Of a stretch of DNA of 64,000 nucleotides, positions 2,866 to 21,441 are shown piece after piece. The translations under genes were made by a program, and so were the position numbers. The notes below the pieces were generated by a model. The model was not told the origin of the DNA, searched no databases, and saw nothing but the letters and a program-made list of their open reading frames with translations. This stretch comes from Candidatus Polarisedimenticolaceae bacterium (GTDB lineage Bacteria > Acidobacteriota > Polarisedimenticolia > Polarisedimenticolales > DASRJG01), in contig DASUCV010000002.1 of the NCBI GenBank assembly GCA_036275915.1, positions 186,001 to 250,000 of the forward strand, in the 5' to 3' direction. The stretch's first letter is position 1; each line of letters begins with the position of its first letter.

Positions 2866-5800
2866 ATGCCCCTCACGTCTCATCCGCTCGCCCGGTTGCT
2901 CCTCGAGCGCATCCTCGTGCTCGACGGCGCCATGGGGACGATGATCCAGTCGTACCGGCTGGGTGAGGCGGACTTTCGCGGGGAGCGGTTCAAGGATCAC
3001 TCGAAGGACCTGAAGGGCTGCAACGACCTGCTGTGCCTCACGCGGCCCGAGGTCGTCCACGAGATCCACACGAAGTATCTCGACGCCGGCGCCGACATCC
3101 TCGAGACGAACACCTTCAACGCGCAGGCGATCTCGCTCGCCGACTACGGGATGGAGCGGCACGCTTACGAGATCAACAAGGCGGCCGCGGAGATCGCCGT
3201 TCGCGCGGCCCGCGCCGCCACGGCGGCGCACCCGGGCAAGCCGCGCTTCGTGGCGGGCTCCCTCGGTCCAACGAACCGCACGGCGTCGCTCTCCCCCGAC
3301 GTCGAGAATCCAGCGTTCCGAGCGATCCACTTCCGCGAGCTGAAGGACGCGTACAAGGAGCAGGCGCGCGGCCTTCTCGACGGCGGCGCCGATCTCCTCC
3401 TTCCGGAGACGACGTTCGACACCTTGAATCTCAAGGCGGCGCTCTTCGCGATCCAGGAGCTGTTCGAGGAACGAGGAAGCTCGGTGCCGGTGATCGCATC
3501 GCTCACGATCACCGATCAGAGCGGGCGCACGCTGTCGGGGCAGACGCTCGAAGCGGCATGGATCTCGATCTCGCACGCGCCGCTCCTCGCGACGGGTCTC
3601 AACTGCGCGCTCGGTGCCGAGCAGATGGGCCCGTTCCTCGAGGACCTTCAGCGCGTCGCGCCGCTCCCGATCACCTGCTATCCGAACGCGGGGCTTCCGA
3701 ACGAGCTCGGAGGCTACGACGAGACGCCGGCGCAGATGGCGGCGACCCTCGCCGAGTTCGCGCGCGAAGGCTGGGTCAACGCCGTCGGCGGATGCTGCGG
3801 GACGACCCCGGCGTACATCGAGGCGATCGCGCACGCGGTCGGCGGGCTCCGTCCGCACAAGCCGGTCGCGCCGGTCGCGTTCACGTACCTCTCCGGGTTC
3901 GAGCCCCTTTCGATTCGCCCCGACTCGAACTTCACCGTGATCGGCGAGCGGACGAACGTCACCGGCTCGAAGAAGTTCGCGCGCCTCGTGGCGGCGGACG
4001 ACTACGAGGGCGCGCTCGCCGTCGCGCGCGATCAGGTCGCGGGCGGCGCGAACATCCTCGACGTCAACTTCGACGAGGGCCTCCTCGACTCCGAGAAGGC
4101 GATGACCACCTTCCTCCACCTCATCGGCTCCGAGCCCGAGATCGCGAAGCTCCCGATCATGGTCGACAGCTCGAAGTGGTCGGTGCTCGTCGCCGGTCTC
4201 GAGTGCCTCCAGGGCAAGGGCGTCGTCAACTCGATCTCGCTCAAGGAGGGTGAGGAGGTCTTCAGAGGACACGCCCGGGCGATCCGGCGCTACGGCGCCG
4301 CGGTCGTCGTGATGGCGTTCGACGAGGAGGGCCAGGCGGTCGAGGTTGACCGCAAGGTCGCGATCGCGAAGCGCGCCTACCGGATTCTCACCGAGGAGGT
4401 CGGCTTCCCTCCCGAGGACATCATCTTCGACGCGAACATCCTGACCGTCGGCACCGGGATCGAAGAGCACGCCCCGTACGCCGTCGCCTTCCTCGACGCG
4501 GTGCGGCGGATCAAGCAGGAGTGCCCCGGCGCCAAGACATCGGGCGGCGTGAGCAACGTGTCGTTCTCGTTCCGCGGGAACGAGCCGGTCCGCGAGGCGA
4601 TGCACGCGGCGTTCCTCTACCACGCAATCCGCGCGGGACTCGACATGGGGATCGTCAACGCCGGCCAGCTCGCCGTCTACGACGAGGTCCCGAAAGACCT
4701 CCTGGAGCACGTCGAGGACGTGCTGCTGAACCGCCGGCCCGACGCCACCGAGCGTCTCATCACGTTCGCTGCGGGAATCAAGGGAGGCGCGAAGGCGCGC
4801 GAGGTCGACGAGGCCTGGCGCAACGCCCCGGTCGAGAAGCGGCTCGAGCACGCGCTCGTCCAGGGCATCGTCGATCACGTCGAGGCCGACACCGAGGAGG
4901 CGCTCGCCCGCTATGGCAAGCCGCTCGCCGTCATCGAGGGGCCGCTCATGGCCGGGATGAACGTCGTCGGCGAGCTGTTCGGCGCCGGGAAGATGTTCCT
5001 GCCCCAGGTCGTCAAGAGCGCGCGCGTCATGAAGAAAGCGGTCGCGTGGCTCGAGCCGTACCTCGAGGCGGAGAAGGCCGCAGGCGGCGGCGCGACCTCC
5101 CGGGCTCGCGTGCTCATGGCGACGGTCAAAGGGGACGTCCACGACATAGGCAAGAACATCGTGGGCGTCGTGCTCGGCTGCAACAACTACGAGGTCATCG
5201 ATCTCGGCGTCATGGTCTCCGCCGAGCGGATCCTGAGAGAAGCGCGCGAGCGCGACGTCCAGGTCATCGGCCTCTCGGGGCTCATCACGCCTTCGCTCGA
5301 CGAGATGGTCCACGTCGCCCGCGAGATGAAGCGGCAGGGGTTCACGACGCCGGTTCTCATCGGCGGCGCGACGACGTCACGCAAGCACACCGCCGTCAAG
5401 ATCGCCCCCGAGTATCCGGGCCCCACCGTCCACGTCGTCGACGCGAGCCGCGCCGTCGACGTCGTCGGCAGCATCGTCTCTCCCGCGCTCTCGGGCCCCT
5501 TCCTCTCGGACGTGCGCGCGGAGTACGAGAAGATCCGCCGCTCCTACGAGGCGCGCGACCAAGCTCCCACGGTCCCCTACGCCGTTGCGCGGGCGCGACG
5601 TCCCGCCCTCTCGTGGTCGGGAGACGAGATTCCGCGCCCCGGGTTCCTGGGCTCGCGCACCGTCGCCACGCTCCCGCTCGACGAGCTGCTGCCCTACATC
5701 GACTGGACACCCTTCTTCCATGCCTGGGAGCTGCCCGGCGTCTACCCTCGCATCCTCGAGCACCCGGTCCACGGCGCCGCGGCGCGCGAGCTGTTCGACA

Positions 5801-12505: not shown

Positions 12506-15500
12506 TCACGGGCACGGCGTGAAGTTGCTGCGCTCCATGCAGTGGGCGTTGCCCAGCGTCCCGCCGTCCGAAGCGATCAGGTAGACGAAGCACTGACCGC
12601 TCGCCGGCGTCGAGCTATCCGCGAGCTGCGTATCGGTGCGGATGGGGTCGAGATCGTCGCGGCAAACGCCGAAGTTCCCGTAGGAGAGGTTGCTCCGCAG
12701 ATCCCGGTAGACGTGGTAGGTGCCCGTACCGGGAACTGAGTTCCAGGTCAGGAGCGTCTTCGAGCTCCACAAGAGGCCCGTCACCTCGGCGGGCGTCAGC
12801 GGATTTTGCTGCCTTTCGTACGCCCCCGGGTCCATGTTCGCGAAGCCGTCGCCGTCGGCGTCCTTCAAGCGCGGTGTCCCGTCGAGATCGGTACAGGGCG
12901 TGCCGGTGAAGGTCGACGGATCCGGGCCGAAGTCGAGAAGCGGCGACGACGCGGTGAGCCGCCAATTGCCGAACCCTTCGAACCCGGGATCGACCTGACG
13001 GTTGCCCGAGGCGGTGCAGTTCTGAGAGCCGATGTCCGACCAGGAGATATTCGCGCAGTCGACATTGAGGAGATCGCCCCCCTGATTGGCGAAGATGATG
13101 GAGCTCGTGATCGTCACCGGGCGGCCCGCCGAGTTGTCGATACCGGCGTTCAGCTGCGAGGCGATCGTCGAGTTGGCGAGCGTGAGCGACCCTGACGGTT
13201 GGAGGATGATCCCCGAGGACCGGCTCGTCGCGATGACGACGGTCCTTGCCGTGGCCGGACCGTTCAAGCTGAGCGGCGTCCCGTATAGGTTCTGCAGCGA
13301 GGACCCCGAGAGGTCGAGCGACCCGCCCGCACCGAGCACGATCCCGTCGGCGACCGGCGCGATCGCGGTGATGCGCGAGACGACGTGCGCGCCGTCGTTC
13401 AACGCGAGCGCGGTCCCCGTGCCGTCGAAGATGCAATTGTCGATCTGCGTCGAGATCGAGGTCCCGGCTTGGGTCTGCACGCCGTACGAGCCGCGCAGGG
13501 TCAGGTTGTGAACGGCGATCGGGCTGCCGGGGGAGGTCGAGACGAGGAAGAACGCGGGGCTCGCGCCTCCGTCGATCGTGACCGCGCGATGCGTTCCGTC
13601 GTCGAGCGGCTCGAAGGTGAACGCCATGTTCCGGTTCACGAGCACGCTCTCGGTGTAGGTGCCGTTGATGCCGGGAAGGATCCTGACGCGCGCGCCTGAC
13701 GCCGCCGCGGCGTTCACGGCCCCCTGGATCGAGAAGAAGTCGGGGAGATCGTCCGCGCGGGAGCTCACCAGGAACTTTGGAATCGCGCTGCAGGCGTCGC
13801 CGATACCGTCCCCGTTCTCGTCGGCCTGCGAGGCGTTCGAGACCGTCGGGCAGTTGTCGCAGGGGTTTCCGACGCCGTCGCTGTCTGCGTCGGCTTGACT
13901 CGGGTTGGAGATGCCGGGGCAGTTGTCGACCGAATCGAGGAAGCCGTCGCCGTCGGTATCTGGAACGACAATGGAGAACGAGGCGACGAAATTCCCCCCT
14001 GCCACGCCGTCTCCGGACGGCAAGCTCCCGTTTCCTTCGCCGTCGAGCGCGTTGACCGACGTGTCGCACAGGCCGCTCGGCTCTTCGCCGGACACGAGGG
14101 TGAGCGTGTAGCTATCCGAGGGCAGCGCCGCCGCGTACTTGATCGTGAGGTCGTGCGTCGTCGTGTTGAACGACATGCCCGACGGCGTGAACGTGCCGTG
14201 GGCGCCGCTCACGAGCTGGGCGAACGACGGGAGAATCATCGGCGCGTAGAGATTCTCGGAAAAGCGCACCACGATTTGTTTGGCGACGCCCGTGAACGTC
14301 GCGTTCGGTGCCGGTGTCATCGCCGTCACCTTCGGCGGCACCCACTCGCCGGAGAAAAAGGTTCCGTTGGCGACGAGGGCGAGCCCGGTCCACGTACTGG
14401 CGTTCTTGCGGAGCGCGATGCGGCCGCCGCCGCCGCCCGAGCCACCGCTTCCTGCTCCCGATCCTCCCATGGCGGTGATCGAGCCGGACCCCGTGATCGT
14501 CCCACAGTCGAGCTTGATGGCACCGCCGGAGCCTCCCGCAATGCCCGGGGGCGGCGGCGCCGTCGGTGCCGCGTTCGAGACCGCGGACTCACCGTTGGCC
14601 GAAAACGTCGAACCCGCCGCGAGCGAGCACACGGCGGCGTCGACCCACACACGCCCGCCGCCGCGCCCGCCGAACCCGTCCGAGGTCGAGCGCGAGCCGC
14701 CCGAGCCGAGGTGGCGTGGATTGACGGCGACCCCGTACGTCGGGTTCGTCGTGCCGCCGGCCGTGCCGCCGTACGAGCCACCCGCGCCGGCGCCGCTTCC
14801 GGCACGCAGCGGGGTACCCGCCTCCAGGGTGACGGGGTCGAGCGTGTACGTCTCGCCGGAGTTCAACCACGGCGAGCCGCCGGAGCCGCCCGCGAGGAGT
14901 CCGTCACCGGTCGCATTGATTCCGGCTTGGACGCCGAGATCGAGGGTGCCGCTGACCGACAGACGCATCCCGCCGAGGTCACGCGGCACGGGCGACAAGC
15001 GAGAGCCGTTTCCGCTGATCGAGACCGACGCCGCGTAGACGTGCGGCGTGATCGAGGCTCCGATCTCGAGCGCGCCCTTGTTCCGGATGATGATCTGATT
15101 GAACCTGGCCGTGGAACTGCGAAGCTGCGCATTCGCGAGGACACCCAACGTGACGCCCCCGCCGTCCGCGATGAGGTCGCCCAACGGCTGAGCGTGGTTC
15201 TTCAGGTAGAGCGTTCCCGGCCCGGCGTTGAAGGGCTGCGCGTTGACGCCGCCGGGCACGAGCAGATTGGCCTGCGGAAACGTCATCGTGTCGAAGTAGA
15301 CCGCGATCCGGCCGCCGGAGGCGCAGCCGTAGAGATTGACGCTTCCACCTGCCGCCCGGACCAGACCGGTCCCCGTGAACGATCCCGCGTCGATCTTGAT
15401 GGAGCCGCCGGAGCCGGCCGCGTCCCCGCTCCCGATCGTGCCGTCGGCGATGATCGATCCATCGACGTTGACGGTCCCGGCCGTGATGCGGACGAGACCT

Positions 15501-16153
15501 CCGCCGTTCCCCCCGGGATTGGTGTGGTAGGACGCGCCGCCCGCACCGAGCTGCGACGGGTCCTCGACCACTCCGTAGGGGCTGTTCGTCGCAGCCGTGG
15601 GGTCCGCGTAGCCGCGGCCGCCGTAACTGCCGCCCGCGGGCGCGACCGCGAAGATATCGGTCTTCGCTCCTTCGATGATCGCGCCGGAGATCGGATCGAA
15701 CGCTTCACCCGAGGTACCGAAAGCGGAGCCGTTCGATCCGCCCCTGAGTCCCTTGTCGGAGACGTCGATCAGGCCACTCGCCTGGACATCCACCGTCCCG
15801 GCATTGATGACGAGACCGGAGAGCTGCCGCGAGGAGTGCGTGACGAGGCCTTGCACGGTCAGCGTGCCCGTGACCGTGAGCGGCGCGTCCGCGGTGATCG
15901 TCCCCGAGTGGTTGACGAGGAGATTCAGGAACGTCCGCGGCGCAACGAATGCGACGGCGGTGCCGACGGTCGTCGACGGATCGCAAGCGTCGCCGATGCC
16001 GTCGAGGTCGAGATCCTCCTGGCCTGGATTGAACACCGTCGGGCAATTGTCGACCGAATCATCGATGCCGTCGCCGTCGGTATCAGCCGCCCACGCGGAG
16101 GAGCTGAGAAGAGAAACCGCCGCGATGACCGTGAGCCACGCAATGCGCTTCAT
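12506..16153 (-). CDS. Large secreted surface protein with TSP3 repeats and beta-helix regions
   Basis: 1215 residues. Order: signal peptide ('MKRIAWLTVIAAVSLLSSSAWA'); a calcium-binding TSP3 repeat ('DTDGDGIDDSVDNCP'); a long Gly/Ser-rich region (about 60-600) with repeated 'GGSGG' and 'GSITA' strands typical of parallel beta-helices; a Big_5-like Ig domain ('VTAMTPAPNATFTGVAKQ'); two more TSP3 repeats; a second beta-helix (about 790-1090); and a C-terminal fibronectin-like module with 'YHVYRDLRSN' and 'GQCFVYLIASDGG'. It is probably an adhesin or matrix protein, or a carbohydrate-facing beta-helix; no catalytic residues are recognisable. It converges on the E1 gene with a 4-base gap. Confidence 0.85.
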   Translation of the reverse strand: MKRIAWLTVIAAVSLLSSSAWAADTDGDGIDDSVDNCPTVFNPGQEDLDLDGIGDACDPSTTVGTAVAFVAPRTFLNLLVNHSGTITADAPLTVTGTLTVQGLVTHSSRQLSGLVINAGTVDVQASGLIDVSDKGLRGGSNGSAFGTSGEAFDPISGAIIEGAKTDIFAVAPAGGSYGGRGYADPTAATNSPYGVVEDPSQLGAGGASYHTNPGGNGGGLVRITAGTVNVDGSIIADGTIGSGDAAGSGGSIKIDAGSFTGTGLVRAAGGSVNLYGCASGGRIAVYFDTMTFPQANLLVPGGVNAQPFNAGPGTLYLKNHAQPLGDLIADGGGVTLGVLANAQLRSSTARFNQIIIRNKGALEIGASITPHVYAASVSISGNGSRLSPVPRDLGGMRLSVSGTLDLGVQAGINATGDGLLAGGSGGSPWLNSGETYTLDPVTLEAGTPLRAGSGAGAGGSYGGTAGGTTNPTYGVAVNPRHLGSGGSRSTSDGFGGRGGGRVWVDAAVCSLAAGSTFSANGESAVSNAAPTAPPPPGIAGGSGGAIKLDCGTITGSGSITAMGGSGAGSGGSGGGGGRIALRKNASTWTGLALVANGTFFSGEWVPPKVTAMTPAPNATFTGVAKQIVVRFSENLYAPMILPSFAQLVSGAHGTFTPSGMSFNTTTHDLTIKYAAALPSDSYTLTLVSGEEPSGLCDTSVNALDGEGNGSLPSGDGVAGGNFVASFSIVVPDTDGDGFLDSVDNCPGISNPSQADADSDGVGNPCDNCPTVSNASQADENGDGIGDACSAIPKFLVSSRADDLPDFFSIQGAVNAAAASGARVRILPGINGTYTESVLVNRNMAFTFEPLDDGTHRAVTIDGGASPAFFLVSTSPGSPIAVHNLTLRGSYGVQTQAGTSISTQIDNCIFDGTGTALALNDGAHVVSRITAIAPVADGIVLGAGGSLDLSGSSLQNLYGTPLSLNGPATARTVVIATSRSSGIILQPSGSLTLANSTIASQLNAGIDNSAGRPVTITSSIIFANQGGDLLNVDCANISWSDIGSQNCTASGNRQVDPGFEGFGNWRLTASSPLLDFGPDPSTFTGTPCTDLDGTPRLKDADGDGFANMDPGAYERQQNPLTPAEVTGLLWSSKTLLTWNSVPGTGTYHVYRDLRSNLSYGNFGVCRDDLDPIRTDTQLADSSTPASGQCFVYLIASDGGTLGNAHCMERSNFTPCP

Positions 16154-16197
16154 GTGCCGCCCCCGTTGCTGTGCTTGAACATACGCCTGTCGGAATG

Positions 16198-16227
16198 AAA
16201 AAGGGGGGCCTTCCGGCCCCCCCTTTT
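16198..16227 (-). terminator. Rho-independent terminator of the OmpA/TSP3 gene
   Basis: G/C-rich hairpin with AAAA(G)6CC / GG(C)7TTTT arms and a TTCC loop. On the minus strand it ends in a run of five T. It lies 30 bases past the OmpA stop. Its symmetrical A and T flanks could let it work on both strands. Confidence 0.85.
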
Positions 16228-16256
16228 GGGTGGTACATGGTCGATTTCGCTTGCGG

Positions 16257-17675
16257 TCAATCCATCCGCTTCAACCCCACGCGCCGGTTCTTGGCCCGGC
16301 CTTCCGCGGTCTTGTTGTCGGCGACCGGGTCGGTCAGTCCGTACCCCTTTTCCGTGAGCTGCGACGCGGGAACGCCCTTCGAGACCAGGTAGTCCATGAC
16401 CGACTTCGCGCGCTTGTCGGAGAGCTTCATGTTGTAGGCCGCCGAGCCGGTATTGTCGGTGTGGCCCGCCACCTGGATGTGAACGTCGGGGTTCGCCTTG
16501 AGCGACTCCGCGACCTTGTCGAGCGTCCCCGACGACTCCGGCTTGAGCTTGGCGCTGTTCGTCTCGAACGTGATCCCTTCCAGGAACAGCTCCTTCTTCG
16601 GCTCCGGGATGAACGCCGGCGCGGGCGGAGGAGGCGGCGGGGGCGGCGGGCAGCCCTTGGCGTCGACCTGCGTTCCCTTCGGCGTGCCGGGGCACTGGTC
16701 GATCCCGTCGCAGACGCCGTCGCCGTCGGAGTCGAGCGTGCAGCCGCGCGCGTCGACGCGGCAGCCCTTCGGCGTGTTCGGGCACTGATCGATGCCGTCG
16801 CAGACGCCGTCGCCGTCGGCGTCGGCCGGGCAGCCGTTCGCGTCGACCTTGCAGCCCTTCGGTGTGTTCGGGCATTTGTCGGCGCCGTCCGGCACGCCGT
16901 CGCCGTCGGAGTCGAGCGGGCAACCCTGCGCCGAAACCGGCCAGCCCTTCGGCGTGTTCGGGCACTGGTCGATCCCGTCGAAGACGCCGTCGCCGTCGGA
17001 ATCGGACGGACAGCCGACCTTGTCGACGATCGCCCCCTTGGGCGTGTCGGGGCACTTGTCTTTCTTGTCGTAAACGCCGTCGCCGTCGGAGTCCTTCGGC
17101 GGCGCGCCGATCCCCCACGTCCAGCCGGCGACGAGCTTGTAGTTGGTGAAGTCGCGACTCCCGAGCGACGTCGCGCTCGTGAGATCGTGGTCCATCCGCG
17201 CCTCGATGCGGAGCGCTCCCGGCATCCACCCGCGGCGGATGCCGACGCCGAGCGAGCCGAAGCCGCGGCCGTCGTTCCCCGCGAGATCGCTCTTGTACTG
17301 GACGGCGCCCACGCCGAAGTCGAGGAGCCACTGCCAGTTCGAGTGCGGGTTGATGTGCCATTCCGGCCCGATGCGCAGCGCGTTCTCCGTGACGTCGCCG
17401 TAGAGCGCGCTGTCGCCCTGGTACGACGTCCACGTGTACTCCGCGAAGCCGGTGATGTACTGCGTGAAGTGCCAGCCGAACCGTGCGCCGATGAGCGGCG
17501 CGACCTTCGTGTCGTTGTCGGAGCCGACGAGCTTCTGGTCGCCGAACCCGACGCCCGCGAGGACGCCGATCTCCCCCGGCCTCTCGTCGTCGGACGTCGC
17601 CCGTACGGGCGGAACGGCGAGCAACGCCGGCAGAGCCGCCGCGAGCCACACCACGGTCAGGATGGAACGTCGCAT
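16257..17675 (-). CDS. OmpA-family outer-membrane protein with TSP3 repeats
   Basis: 472 residues: signal peptide ('MRRSILTVVWLAAALPALLA'); an N-terminal beta-barrel (about 25-200); TSP3 repeats of 30 residues ('CPNTPKG...GCPLDSDGDGVPDG'), five copies; a proline stretch; and a C-terminal OmpA peptidoglycan-binding domain ('ITFETNSAKLKPES', 'VAGHTDNTGSAAYNMKLSDKRA', 'AEGRAKNRRV'). It links the outer membrane to peptidoglycan. Of two close ATGs, 17675 has the better spacing (8 bases) to AAGGAG; the alternative is 17681. The terminator at 16198-16227 follows. Confidence 0.93.
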   Translation of the reverse strand: MRRSILTVVWLAAALPALLAVPPVRATSDDERPGEIGVLAGVGFGDQKLVGSDNDTKVAPLIGARFGWHFTQYITGFAEYTWTSYQGDSALYGDVTENALRIGPEWHINPHSNWQWLLDFGVGAVQYKSDLAGNDGRGFGSLGVGIRRGWMPGALRIEARMDHDLTSATSLGSRDFTNYKLVAGWTWGIGAPPKDSDGDGVYDKKDKCPDTPKGAIVDKVGCPSDSDGDGVFDGIDQCPNTPKGWPVSAQGCPLDSDGDGVPDGADKCPNTPKGCKVDANGCPADADGDGVCDGIDQCPNTPKGCRVDARGCTLDSDGDGVCDGIDQCPGTPKGTQVDAKGCPPPPPPPPPAPAFIPEPKKELFLEGITFETNSAKLKPESSGTLDKVAESLKANPDVHIQVAGHTDNTGSAAYNMKLSDKRAKSVMDYLVSKGVPASQLTEKGYGLTDPVADNKTAEGRAKNRRVGLKRMD

Positions 17676-17713
17676 AGACATCTCTCCTTCGCGAAAAAGG
17701 CGGACAGGGTAGC

Positions 17714-18151
17714 TCAGGCGGCGCGCACCTCGGAGGTGCAATTCGGACAACGCGTGGCGCCGAGCGGGATCTGCGTCTTGCAGTACGGGCACTCCCTGGT
17801 GGTCGGCGCGGCCGCGGGCGCTTCCTTCTTGAGCCGGTTCATCTGCTTGACGAGCAGGAAGATGACGAACGCGACGATGAGGAAGTCGATGACCGCGTTG
17901 ATGAAGAGCCCGTAGTTCACCGTCGGCGCGCCGGCGGCCTTGGCCGCGGCGAGCGACGCATACGTCTTGCCGTCGAGAGCCAGGAAGAGGCTCGAGAAGT
18001 CCATGCCTCCCATGAGCTTCCCGATCGGCGGCATGAGGACGTCGTTGACGAGCGAGCTGACGATCCTGCCGAACGCAGCGCCGATGATGATGCCGACCGC
18101 CATGTCGACGACGTTTCCCTTGAGCGCGAACTCTTTGAATTCCTTGAGCAT
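17714..18151 (-). CDS. mscL: Large-conductance mechanosensitive channel with C-terminal zinc ribbon
   Basis: 145 residues. The MscL core is clear: '[43 protein letters not shown]' as first membrane helix and pore, then '[23 protein letters not shown]' as the second. The usual cytoplasmic bundle is followed by a two-CxxC zinc ribbon ([18 protein letters not shown]). GGAGG lies five bases before ATG 18151. It releases solutes on hypo-osmotic shock; the ribbon may gate, anchor or sense metal, which is inference. Confidence 0.95.
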
Positions 18152-18555: not shown

Positions 18556-19314
18556 TCAGCGCAGCACGAAGTCCACGCGCACCGAGATGTACACCCGAAC
18601 CGGCCGCCCATTCATCGTCGCCGGCGTGTAGCGCCACTGACGGACCGCCTCGATCGCCGCCGCGTTAAAGAGGGCGCTCGTCGAGGCGAGGATCTCCGCC
18701 GACTCGATCCGGCCGTCGAGGCCGACGACCGCCTGCACGACGACCGACCCGCTCATGCGCGCGATGCGTGGCGTGCTCGGGTAGACGGGTTCCACCTTGA
18801 CGATGCGGACGGGCGCGATCATCTCGCCGGTGAGGACGACCGGGCCGACAACCCCCGTCGCATCGGCGTCGCCGCCCCCGCCTCCACCGCCGCCCCCGCC
18901 GTGGTCCCCGCCTTCGCCCGGAGGGCCCGCCGAACCATCCGGCCCTTCTGCCACAGGCCCGGTGGAACCGTCCGTCGTCTCGGGAGGCGGCGTCTCTTGC
19001 GGTGCCGGCAGTCGCTGCAGTGTCTCGATCGGAACCGGTGGCGGCAACACAGCGCGCACCGGCTCCGAGTGCCCGCTGCGCTTCGGAGGCTGCGGGGCGA
19101 CGAGTGGCCTCTCGGGCCCGGAGGACCGGGGCGGCGGCGTGATCAGGACGATGGTCGCTGGAAGAGGCCGCTCGACGATCGGCTTCACGGTGAGCGCGGC
19201 GACAACCGCCAGAAACGACACCGCGGTCAAATGGGCGAGAGCCACGACGGACACCGTGCGAAATCGTCGTTCACCGGCATCGAGCGCTTGCGCTTCGATC
19301 GTCCTCTCGAACAT
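18556..19314 (-). CDS. TonB-family energy transducer
   Basis: 252 residues: one N-terminal membrane anchor (about 20-43, 'VVALAHLTAVSFLAVVAALTV'), a Pro-rich then Gly-rich periplasmic linker (about 55-155), and a C-terminal TonB domain ('VKVEPVYPSTPRIARMSGSVVVQAVVGLDGRIESAEIL...AAIEAVRQWRYTPATMNGRPV'). It spans the periplasm to energise outer-membrane receptors. No ExbBD or TonB-dependent receptor is adjacent. An AAGGAGG ribosome binding site precedes ATG 19314. Confidence 0.92.
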   Translation of the reverse strand: MFERTIEAQALDAGERRFRTVSVVALAHLTAVSFLAVVAALTVKPIVERPLPATIVLITPPPRSSGPERPLVAPQPPKRSGHSEPVRAVLPPPVPIETLQRLPAPQETPPPETTDGSTGPVAEGPDGSAGPPGEGGDHGGGGGGGGGGDADATGVVGPVVLTGEMIAPVRIVKVEPVYPSTPRIARMSGSVVVQAVVGLDGRIESAEILASTSALFNAAAIEAVRQWRYTPATMNGRPVRVYISVRVDFVLR

Positions 19315-19428: not shown

Positions 19429-20085
19429 ATGCGCAGGACGGCGATCGCGCTCACGGCCCTGACCCTCGCCGCGTGCGGTGCACGCCCCGCGGAAGTCCTG
19501 CCGCCCGCCGGCAAGGCCGAGTACGTCGACGCGTCGGCCGATCACCCGCACCTCAAGTTCGGCGACGGCTCGGTCTCCGCGAACGAGGCCTGCCCGGTCA
19601 CGAAACGGAAGCTGTCGGTGTGGTTCCCCCCGGTCTACGTCAACGGGAAGCCGTTCGGCTTCTGCTGAAGGCCCTGCGTCAAGGTCTTCGTGCAAGACCC
19701 TCAGGTTCAGCTCGGCGAGCTCGGGATCGAGATCCCCGATCTCATCGACCCGTCGCGGAAGGCGGTGCTCGATCCCGCGCACCGGACGTTCGTGAATTAC
19801 GAGACCTACTTCTTCGCCGACGAAGGGGACAAGAAGCGGTTCGACGCCGACCCTACGGGATCGTGCGGCGTGCTCACCGACCCGATCGGCAAGCGTCGAT
19901 TCCGCCCCGCCTCGGACGCGCCGCGCGCCGACGTCGACGGACGCATCTATCTGTTCCTGAGCGAGGACGACAAGGCGAAGTTCCTCGCGAGCCCCGAGGC
20001 GTACGCGCGCCCGAATTACGACGCGATCGAGATTCCGGAGATGCCGATGATGCCGGCGCCGGCGTCACCGGCTCCAGCGAAGTAG
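19429..20085 (+). CDS. Candidate selenoprotein: YHS/TRASH-like lipoprotein with in-frame TGA
   Basis: Reading through TGA 19666-19668 gives a 218-residue protein. Residues 1-20 form a lipoprotein signal (lipobox LAAC, Cys16). Module 1 reads CPVT (Cys55) ... 'VYVNGKPFGFC-U-RPCVKVF', so codon 80 falls where YHS/TRASH metal-binding proteins have the second Cys of FCCxxC, and creates a UxxC redox pair with Cys83. Two further YHS-like modules follow ('TYFFADEGDKKRFDADP', 'IYLFLSEDDKAKFLASPEAY') without cysteine pairs. The 139 codons after TGA are open, homologous and same-frame. A hairpin fitting bacterial SECIS geometry lies downstream. Alternative: a recent nonsense mutation. The 3' end overlaps the convergent NUDIX gene by 21 bases. 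Confidence 0.72.
19666..19668 (+). other. In-frame TGA, candidate selenocysteine codon (residue 80)
   Basis: TTC TGC TGA AGG CCC TGC: the only stop inside the lipoprotein frame, placed between the two thiols of an expected metal/redox site. Reading frame and YHS/TRASH homology continue on both sides. Confidence 0.7.
19673..19705 (+). promoter_or_regulatory. SECIS-like hairpin downstream of the TGA
   Basis: Upper stem GGTCTT/AAGACC (19683-19688 with 19694-19699), apical loop CGTGC with G in second position, and lower stem CCTG/CAGG (19673-19676 with 19702-19705). The loop begins 20 bases after the TGA, inside the 16-37 base window known for bacterial SECIS elements. Found by eye; not folded computationally. 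Confidence 0.55.
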
Positions 20086-21441
20086 ATCTTCCCCTTCCGG
20101 GCGTGCGGCTCCCCGCTCCTTCAGATGGACGAGGTGCGCGCGCGTCTGCATCTCGCGAAGGAACGCGGGCGCCTCGGGCGTGTCGGCGTAGGCGTCCCTC
20201 GCGATGTCCTGGAGCGCGCGCGGAGTGTCGTTCAGCGCGGCCGCAACGAGACGCTCCCGCTCCTCGCGATGCGCGACCGCGGCGGCGAGGGCGGCTCCCG
20301 GGATCGGCGGCCCGTGCGACGGGAAGACCGCCTTCGGGGCGAGCGCGGCGACGCGCCGGAGCGAGGCGAGGTAGTCCTCCATGTCGCCCTCGGCGAATCC
20401 CACGAGGATGCTCGACAGTCCGCTCACGAGATCGCCCGCGAGGAGGAGCCGGCGCTCCTCGTCGTAGAACGCGAGATGCCCGGGGGCGTGGCCCGGTGTG
20501 TGGTGCGCGATCAGGCGCATCCCACCGAGGTCGAGAACCTCGCCGTTTACGAGCGCCCGCGTCGGGGCGCCCGCGAGGGCGGGCACGCGCGCGAGCGTCG
20601 CCGCGTGCGCCAGCACGGGAACGCCGAGGGCCTGCGCGAGCCGCGCCGCTCCGGCGACGTGATCGCGGTGGTGATGGCTGAGAACGACCGAGGTCACGGG
20701 ACTCCCCTCGTCGGCGCGGCGCCGCACGAGGCGGAGCAGGCGCGCGTGCTCCGCCTCGTCGTCGCTCCCCGGGTCGATGACGACGCTCGTCGTGCCTCCG
20801 GGAATCCAGACGTTCGTGCACGACGCCGGCGGCAGCGTGCGGCTGCGCACCGGGAGCACCCAGACCCCAGGGCTGAACTCGATCTTGGGGACCGGGTCTT
20901 CCGCGGCGTTGATCGCGGCGATGCGCGCGGCGAGGCGTGAGGGATCGGCGTCGGTCAGCGTGACGAGGAGGCGGAGGATCGGCAGGAGCGGAGGCGGTAC
21001 GAGCGCCCGCCCCGCCGCCCACGCGTCGAGGACGCCCTTCGGGTCTTCGAATGCGAGCGTCTCGATCTCCTGCGGTTGCGGGGCCACCGGAGGAAGCGGG
21101 ATACCGCCGGCGACGGCGACGAAGAACCGCGTGCGGAAACGAACGGGAAAAATGGGCGGTGTCGTCCGTTCGCCCGCCGGATACCACGCCGTCTCGGGGA
21201 TCGCGAGGCCGGTCTCCTCCAGCACCTCGCGCGAGACGCAGCGCTCGAAGGCGCCGGCGGTTCCGGGACGATCTTCCGGCTCCATCCGGCCGCCGGGGAA
21301 CGCCAGGTTCCCCGGCATGAAGCGCGACCGGCGCGCGCGGCGTCCCAGGAGGACACGGCCGCGGTCGAGCACGATGCCGAGGGCCGAGTCCTTGGGCTCC
21401 GGAATCGGTGCGGGGTCGACGTCGTCGGGAAGCTCGCTCAT
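20065..21441 (-). CDS. NUDIX hydrolase fused to a metallo-beta-lactamase-fold hydrolase
   Basis: 458 residues. The N-terminal half (about 20-185) is a NUDIX domain with the box 'GGRMEP...SREVLEETGL', carrying a short insertion between its G and R parts. The C-terminal half (about 195-458) is a beta-lactamase-fold hydrolase with the metal motif 'LSHHHRDHVAGAA', then 'HTPGHAPGHLAFY' and 'LLLAGDLVSG', like LACTB2/RNase-type members. Such fusions are thought to act on CoA or nucleotide derivatives, but the substrate here is unknown. Divergent from pgl, sharing a palindromic -10 at 21451-21460. Confidence 0.9.
   Translation of the reverse strand: MSELPDDVDPAPIPEPKDSALGIVLDRGRVLLGRRARRSRFMPGNLAFPGGRMEPEDRPGTAGAFERCVSREVLEETGLAIPETAWYPAGERTTPPIFPVRFRTRFFVAVAGGIPLPPVAPQPQEIETLAFEDPKGVLDAWAAGRALVPPPLLPILRLLVTLTDADPSRLAARIAAINAAEDPVPKIEFSPGVWVLPVRSRTLPPASCTNVWIPGGTTSVVIDPGSDDEAEHARLLRLVRRRADEGSPVTSVVLSHHHRDHVAGAARLAQALGVPVLAHAATLARVPALAGAPTRALVNGEVLDLGGMRLIAHHTPGHAPGHLAFYDEERRLLLAGDLVSGLSSILVGFAEGDMEDYLASLRRVAALAPKAVFPSHGPPIPGAALAAAVAHREERERLVAAALNDTPRALQDIARDAYADTPEAPAFLREMQTRAHLVHLKERGAARPEGEDLLRWSR

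Follow-up and report, generated by a model that had tools for sequence, protein, structure and literature searches.

A YHS-domain gene with a single in-frame TGA

The gene described here lies on the forward strand at positions 19429-20085 of the window (the whole 64,000-nucleotide stretch of DNA that was analyzed), where a frame running from ATG to TAG contains one internal stop, a TGA at 19666-19668. This TGA is codon 80, its context is Gly-Phe-Cys-TGA-Arg-Pro-Cys, and when it is translated the frame yields a protein of 218 amino acids. A first-pass annotation, made from the letters of the sequence, had described a single TGA at this codon in an otherwise continuous frame, which proved exact on re-reading. 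It had also counted 139 open, homologous codons downstream; the open frame and the homology hold, but the number of sense codons after the TGA is 138, as 139 includes the stop. A standard open reading frame caller breaks the gene at the UGA and restarts at a GTG at 19690. The features of the locus are as follows:

18556-19314, minus strand: divergent neighbor, a TonB C-terminal domain protein (Pfam PF03544), with no part in the system shown
19429-20085, plus strand: predicted selenoprotein gene, exported, 218 residues, three YHS/TRASH-like repeats, selenocysteine (Sec) at residue 80 (translation, Pfam YHS, 15 other full-length members)
19429-19476, plus strand: putative signal peptide with lipobox, MRRTAIALTALTLAA-C16 (read from the sequence)
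19591-19722, plus strand: YHS/TRASH-like repeat 1, residues 55-98, with Cys55 and Cys79-Sec80-x-x-Cys83 (family alignment)
19666-19668, plus strand: UGA codon 80, predicted to be decoded as selenocysteine (of 16 members, 12 with TGA and 4 with TGC; genome encodes Sec machinery)
19683-19699, plus strand: SECIS-like hairpin, GGUCUU (19683-19688) paired with AAGACC (19694-19699) around the loop CGUGC (19689-19693) (conservation, covariation, codon shuffle, bSECIS criteria)
19771-19869, plus strand: degenerate YHS-like repeat 2, about residues 115-147, a beta-hairpin and helix with no Cys ligand set (alignment; low-confidence model)
19873-20004, plus strand: YHS repeat 3, about residues 149-192, without Cys ligands (Pfam YHS match at residues 170-194; the best-predicted part of the model)
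20065-21441, minus strand: convergent neighbor, a NUDIX/metallo-beta-lactamase-fold fusion (Pfam PF00753, PF00293), with no part in the system shown

With a divergent TonB-type gene on one side and the convergent NUDIX/metallo-beta-lactamase gene on the other, there is no sign of an operon at the window's YHS gene. Elsewhere in the window, at 12506-17792 on the minus strand, two adjacent frames were seen by eye to carry repeats of the D-x-D-G-D-G type (thrombospondin type 3-like), the second of them with an OmpA-like C-terminus.

Relatives in two phyla carry TGA or TGC at codon 80

The full-length protein was found in three Acidobacteriota genomes, namely the window's own, G001 from the same family, and G012 from another family of the class, and all three genes carry TGA at the codon-80 column. 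A scan of genomes from 84,980 species gave one further relative, in Candidatus Eisenbacteria (now Ca. Eiseniibacteriota), and a search of 47 Ca. Eiseniibacteriota genomes gave 13 full-length members. The family set consists of these 16 full-length genes, three from Acidobacteriota (window gene included) and 13 from Ca. Eiseniibacteriota, the members being approximately 31-43% identical to the window protein. Profile searching across the phylum Acidobacteriota produced matches in 77 genomes, all but three of them partial and mostly to the C-terminal YHS repeat, and the plasmids and viral contigs searched contained no relatives. At one locus (L132, G433:C77), part of the N-terminal region of the YHS gene occurs a second time, at 4151-4927; this incomplete copy sits directly upstream of the intact gene and runs into unrelated sequence, and is either a duplication or an assembly artefact.

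At the codon-80 column, 12 of the 16 genes have TGA and the other four have TGC (Cys), with no other residue represented. The first-pass annotation had suggested searching for homologues with Cys at residue 80 in the same frame, which the four TGC genes provide, and had expected FCCxxC in the Cys form; the Cys homologues indeed read AFCCMTC, AFCCSPC, GFCCEGC, and GFCCVFC. The Sec and Cys forms interleave in the tree, which requires four state changes; well-supported branches make at least two of these unavoidable.

Viewed in one genome, a lone stop in an otherwise open frame is what a nonsense mutation in a decaying gene would look like, the TGA then being a true stop. The same TGA codon is found, however, in 12 genomes of two phyla, and no other stop lies inside any of the 12 TGA-form frames. 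Conservation of residues extends to either side of the UGA and continues almost to the C-terminus, and the changes, downstream of the UGA as elsewhere, are concentrated at third codon positions. Random stops or frameshifts in relatives, which the first-pass annotation had named as grounds for abandoning the selenoprotein reading, were not seen; the codon is only ever TGA or TGC. A pseudogene is accordingly an extremely improbable explanation of the locus.

A conserved SECIS-like hairpin follows the UGA

The hairpin downstream of the window's UGA is separated from it by 14 nt at the stem and by 20 nt at the apical loop, folds with a minimum free energy (MFE) of -11.3 kcal/mol, and may be enclosed by an outer helix (CCUG 19673-19676 with CAGG 19702-19705). 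The bSECIS model describes a loop of 3-9 nt, a stem of 4-16 bp, and a G at the first or second base of the loop (PMC13188914), at a distance of 16-37 nt from the UGA and with an MFE at or below -7.5 kcal/mol (PMC13188914); with its loop CGUGC, 6-bp stem, spacing, and energy, the window hairpin fits the model on every count. Because the model alone is permissive (a similar screen lets through 27% of the window's TGA triplets), three stronger tests were brought to bear on the hairpin: covariation, codon shuffling, and comparison with the Cys genes.

All 12 TGA genes have an uninterrupted stem of 6-7 bp in the same place, with the loop 20 nt after the UGA and a G within the first two loop positions; in one of them (L019), a different hairpin is more stable than the shared one. 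Pairing occurs in 94% of cells at the shared stem, compared to at most 61% when the partner strand is slid. Compensatory changes are present in three of the seven stem pairs (19-33, 20-32, and 22-30), where both sides vary and pairing is kept, and the covariation score was reached by none of 500 shuffles. When synonymous codons were reshuffled with the protein held fixed, a stem of at least 6 pairs arose in 1-43% of draws per TGA gene, giving a joint probability for the stems over the 12 genes of about 10^-11.5 on the assumption of independence, although the genes are not fully independent. The shared hairpin is established only by comparison across genes: folding the UGA region as a single sequence gave no signal (z -0.18), and an Rfam scan of the region returned nothing meaningful, the best row being flg-Rhizobiales (26 bits; gathering score 55).

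In the Cys genes, the corresponding stem has 7, 2, 2, and 0 bp, so that it is lost in three of four, and its retention in the remaining gene (L072) fits a recent change from Sec to Cys. These losses also bear on whether the window's TGA is a sequencing or assembly error for TGC, which would need a one-base change and would restore the codon that four relatives do have. The TGA is present in 12 separate, independent assemblies, and the hairpin is kept in all TGA genes and lost in three of the four TGC genes, leaving a minute chance for such an error, which the first-pass annotation had itself raised as a way in which its reading could fail. The close Sec/Cys pairs with matching loss of the hairpin make the family a good system for studying Sec gain and loss.

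Selenocysteine machinery in the host genomes

The window's genome is a 4.5-Mb draft in 24 contigs, estimated to be 98% complete. It contains selA (518 bits), selB (291 bits, above the cut-off), selD (361 bits), and a tRNA-Sec (72 bits; anticodon UCA by ARAGORN), the last found with model RF01852, whose lower-ranking matches are mostly other tRNAs. All four components that the first-pass annotation had proposed looking for are thereby present in the same genome. In addition, selD (L022, G000:C11:265241-266182) has an internal TGA of its own, at AACAG-U-ASK, and UxxK is the known Sec site of Sec-type SelD (PMC13188914). With selA, selB, tRNA-Sec, and a selD that carries TGA at UxxK, the genome encodes a full Sec pathway and at least one selenoprotein of standard type.

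The pathway was also traced in the genomes of the relatives. All 12 TGA-form genomes have selA, and selB was matched in each of the four genomes checked (the window's, G001, G012, and G396), the match being partial and near a contig end in G012 and G396. Ten of the 12 TGA-form genomes yielded a tRNA-Sec. In the other two, both drafts with selA, the candidate is a tRNA-Ser according to ARAGORN (G012) or no tRNA-Sec was found (G437), and incompleteness of the drafts may account for both misses. Among the Cys-form genomes, three of four have selA and tRNA-Sec, and G432 lacks both.

UGA readthrough occurs in bacteria, and since some family members have Cys at this position, readthrough or a local reassignment of UGA to an ordinary amino acid (Trp or Cys), with no selenium involved, was also weighed. 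Against this, 8 of 13 genes checked in the window terminate normally in TGA and UGA is the final stop in several members of the same YHS family, from which we conclude that TGA is not generally reassigned. The genomes moreover carry Sec machinery, the SelD of the window's genome has a Sec codon of its own, and the hairpin agrees with the bSECIS model, so readthrough of this kind is very improbable. The selenocysteine reading put forward in the first-pass annotation is instead supported by the machinery, by the TGA/TGC column, and by a covarying SECIS-like hairpin that the annotation did not contain. Taken together, the comparisons between genes suggest that UGA codon 80 almost certainly encodes selenocysteine; it would be decoded by the organism's SelA, SelB, SelD, and tRNA-Sec, directed by the downstream hairpin.

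A predicted exported protein of three YHS/TRASH-like repeats

A lipobox, LAAC, can be read by eye at residues 13-16 of the window protein, suggesting that the protein is exported and of the lipoprotein type. The lipid anchor that the first-pass annotation had proposed fits the window protein and some relatives only; the majority of those from Ca. Eiseniibacteriota seem to carry an ordinary signal peptide.

Pfam YHS (PF04945) matches the window protein at 36.9 bits (gathering threshold 30.3, E 3.7e-9), and all 16 members match it at E up to 1. In the alignment, residues 55, 79, and 83 are Cys and residue 80 is Cys or Sec in 16 of 16 members, and a unit of beta-hairpin and helix is seen three times in the alignment and the low-confidence models. 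The window protein looks like three YHS/TRASH-like units in tandem, of which only the first appears to have the ligand residues. The structure models are of low confidence (pLDDT 47.6 and 69.0), and Foldseek searches with them gave no match at E 0.001 or better, the weak top rows being methane and toluene monooxygenase hydroxylases. No solved structure significantly matches the Sec-bearing repeat in these searches, which are uninformative for that repeat because the structure prediction is weak. Selenocysteine at codon 80 and the three-repeat exported architecture together are very probably correct.

Possible functions of the Sec-bearing site

Cys residues of YHS/TRASH proteins are regarded as metal ligands. 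With regard to gene context, a thioredoxin-NHL gene carrying a CCINC motif lies upstream of the YHS gene, on the opposite strand, in eight Eiseniibacteriota genomes (L056, L129-L131, and L133-L136), where it neighbors Cys and Sec forms alike. At the same eight loci, an M3 peptidase gene lies downstream on the YHS strand, and at the one locus scanned (L129), a DUF4037-like gene is located between the two. The thioredoxin-NHL gene was not found at the locus of the window gene or at those of the two other Acidobacteriota members, and no metal-transport or resistance gene was recognized adjoining the family members examined.

The ligand-type Cys residues, a possible pairing of Sec80 with Cys79 or Cys83, and the thioredoxin-NHL neighbor lead us to favor an exported, redox-switchable soft-metal site. 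In this mechanism, the Cys55...Cys79-Sec80-x-x-Cys83 cluster would serve as a binding site for soft metals or metalloids (Cu(I), Hg(II), or As(III), for example) and would be switched via a selenenylsulfide between Sec80 and Cys79 or Cys83, with re-reduction by a thioredoxin-like partner. The protein would capture or pass on the metal, or work as a thiol oxidoreductase, outside the cytoplasm. This combination of soft-metal or metalloid cluster, selenenylsulfide switch, and extracytoplasmic metal capture, transfer, or thiol oxidoreduction is offered tentatively, as having nearly an even chance of being right, and pure thiol/selenol redox chemistry and pure metal handling are its close rivals.

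CxxU and UxxC motifs are typical of redox selenoproteins (PMC13188914), which speaks for Sec80 as purely a redox catalyst, in a UxxC or vicinal Cys-Sec thiol oxidoreductase that uses no metal. The divergent thioredoxin-NHL gene at the eight homologous loci points the same way. A thioredoxin fold is not indicated, however; the host domain is of the YHS/TRASH type, with its ligand-type Cys residues, and Cys55, which lies outside CUxxC, is invariant too, so that a purely redox role is possible but rather unlikely. Membership of the YHS/TRASH domain argues instead for C55, C79, U80, and C83 as a soft-metal site (Cu, Hg, As, or Ag) that serves detoxification or delivery with no redox step, and other predicted selenoproteins have been linked to heavy-metal handling (PMC13188914). 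The lack of a recognizable metal-transport or resistance gene beside the family members examined counts against a site of this kind, and we consider it the less likely of the two rivals to the redox-switched soft-metal site.

A probable second family of YHS selenoproteins

The family profile search also gave single matches of 120 residues in Ca. Eiseniibacteriota. We read 16 such loci in 15 genomes (L081-L087 and L117-L125), and in 16 of 16 an in-frame TGA lies exactly before the 120-residue stretch, usually preceded by a signal-peptide-like frame where the contig extends far enough upstream. The putative Sec context is then [F/I]T-U-xxxx-(V)PSGP or a GPSAP variant. The main type comprises 11 genes; these share a hairpin with a stem starting 10-11 nt downstream of the UGA, in which 97% of cells are paired and two pairs vary on both strands. 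Of the 15 genomes, 14 have selA, the exception being G432. Judged from these sequence patterns, the loci probably represent a further, independent and new family of selenoproteins, in which Sec would lie close to the N-terminus of the mature protein.

In G432, the second-family gene (L119, G432:C286, from 571 onward) is cut short by an in-frame TAG, the first-family gene has the Cys form with its hairpin lost, and both selA and tRNA-Sec went undetected, a pattern that looks like loss of selenocysteine use.

Considered together, the two families may form a group of exported YHS/TRASH repeat selenoproteins in Acidobacteriota and Ca. Eiseniibacteriota, with Sec at two unrelated sites: the FCUxxC ligand cluster, and a post-signal-peptide FTU...PSGP site. 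In the former, selenium would tune a soft-metal site that a thioredoxin-like partner switches outside the cytoplasm. We regard this wider picture as speculative, and as somewhat less likely to be right than wrong.

Comparison with known selenoproteins

In a 2026 inventory, the selenoproteins of prokaryotes are divided into 119 families and subfamilies (PMC13188914), and most characterized prokaryotic families have a thioredoxin-like fold (PMC13188914). With eleven relatives in two phyla sharing the codon-80 TGA, the window gene and its relatives are regarded as a new exported selenoprotein family, absent from the catalogues checked. In NCBIfam 20.0, no selenoprotein model reaches its cut-off and no other model matches the family meaningfully, and the open-access literature searched contained no report joining the TRASH domain with selenocysteine or Eisenbacteria with a selenoprotein. 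Ordinary annotation splits such genes at the UGA, which makes them easily missed, and the two host phyla are known largely from assembled metagenomes.

The first-pass annotation had been aware of no established selenoprotein family of this kind. That stands as far as the catalogues checked are concerned, but a different YHS selenoprotein family does exist: NF041384, the inventory's one YHS entry, whose motif is GxU (PMC13188914). Like the window protein, NF041384 has a YHS domain and Sec-containing members, and its profile resembles part of repeat 3. However, it matches the window protein at only 15 bits (cut-off 70) and does so at residues 168-197, in repeat 3 and about 90 residues from Sec80; its Sec motif is GxU, compared to F-C-U-x-x-C in 12 of 12 Sec members. 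Across the family, NF041384 matches 15 of the 16 members weakly (best E 1.7e-4), and for the second family the matches are of 18-21 bits (cut-off 70).

Several metal-associated selenoproteins are known, namely NF041115 (UxxU metal-binding), NF045648 MbdU, the CopZ-like CU forms, and the SO_0444 family (PMC13188914). They resemble the window family in having Sec in presumed metal or thiol sites, some of them CU or UxxC, but the 16 proteins gave no match, at E up to 1, to the NCBIfam models of these families. A Cys homologue of repeat 1 occurs in the same phylum, in the double-YHS protein of G051 (L020), which reads FCCAAC; it differs in having 161 residues, two YHS repeats, and no TGA, and its similarity is partial (E 2.7e-5).

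The window family shares with the TRASH-like domain PF04945 the pattern of repeat 1, CPV...FC[C/U]xxC...F..DP, and differs in having three tandem repeats, ligands in the first only, and Sec for the second Cys of FCC. With Sec among the presumed ligands of a YHS/TRASH-type domain in a predicted exported protein, the family offers a testable case of selenium as a metal ligand or as a metal-linked redox residue.
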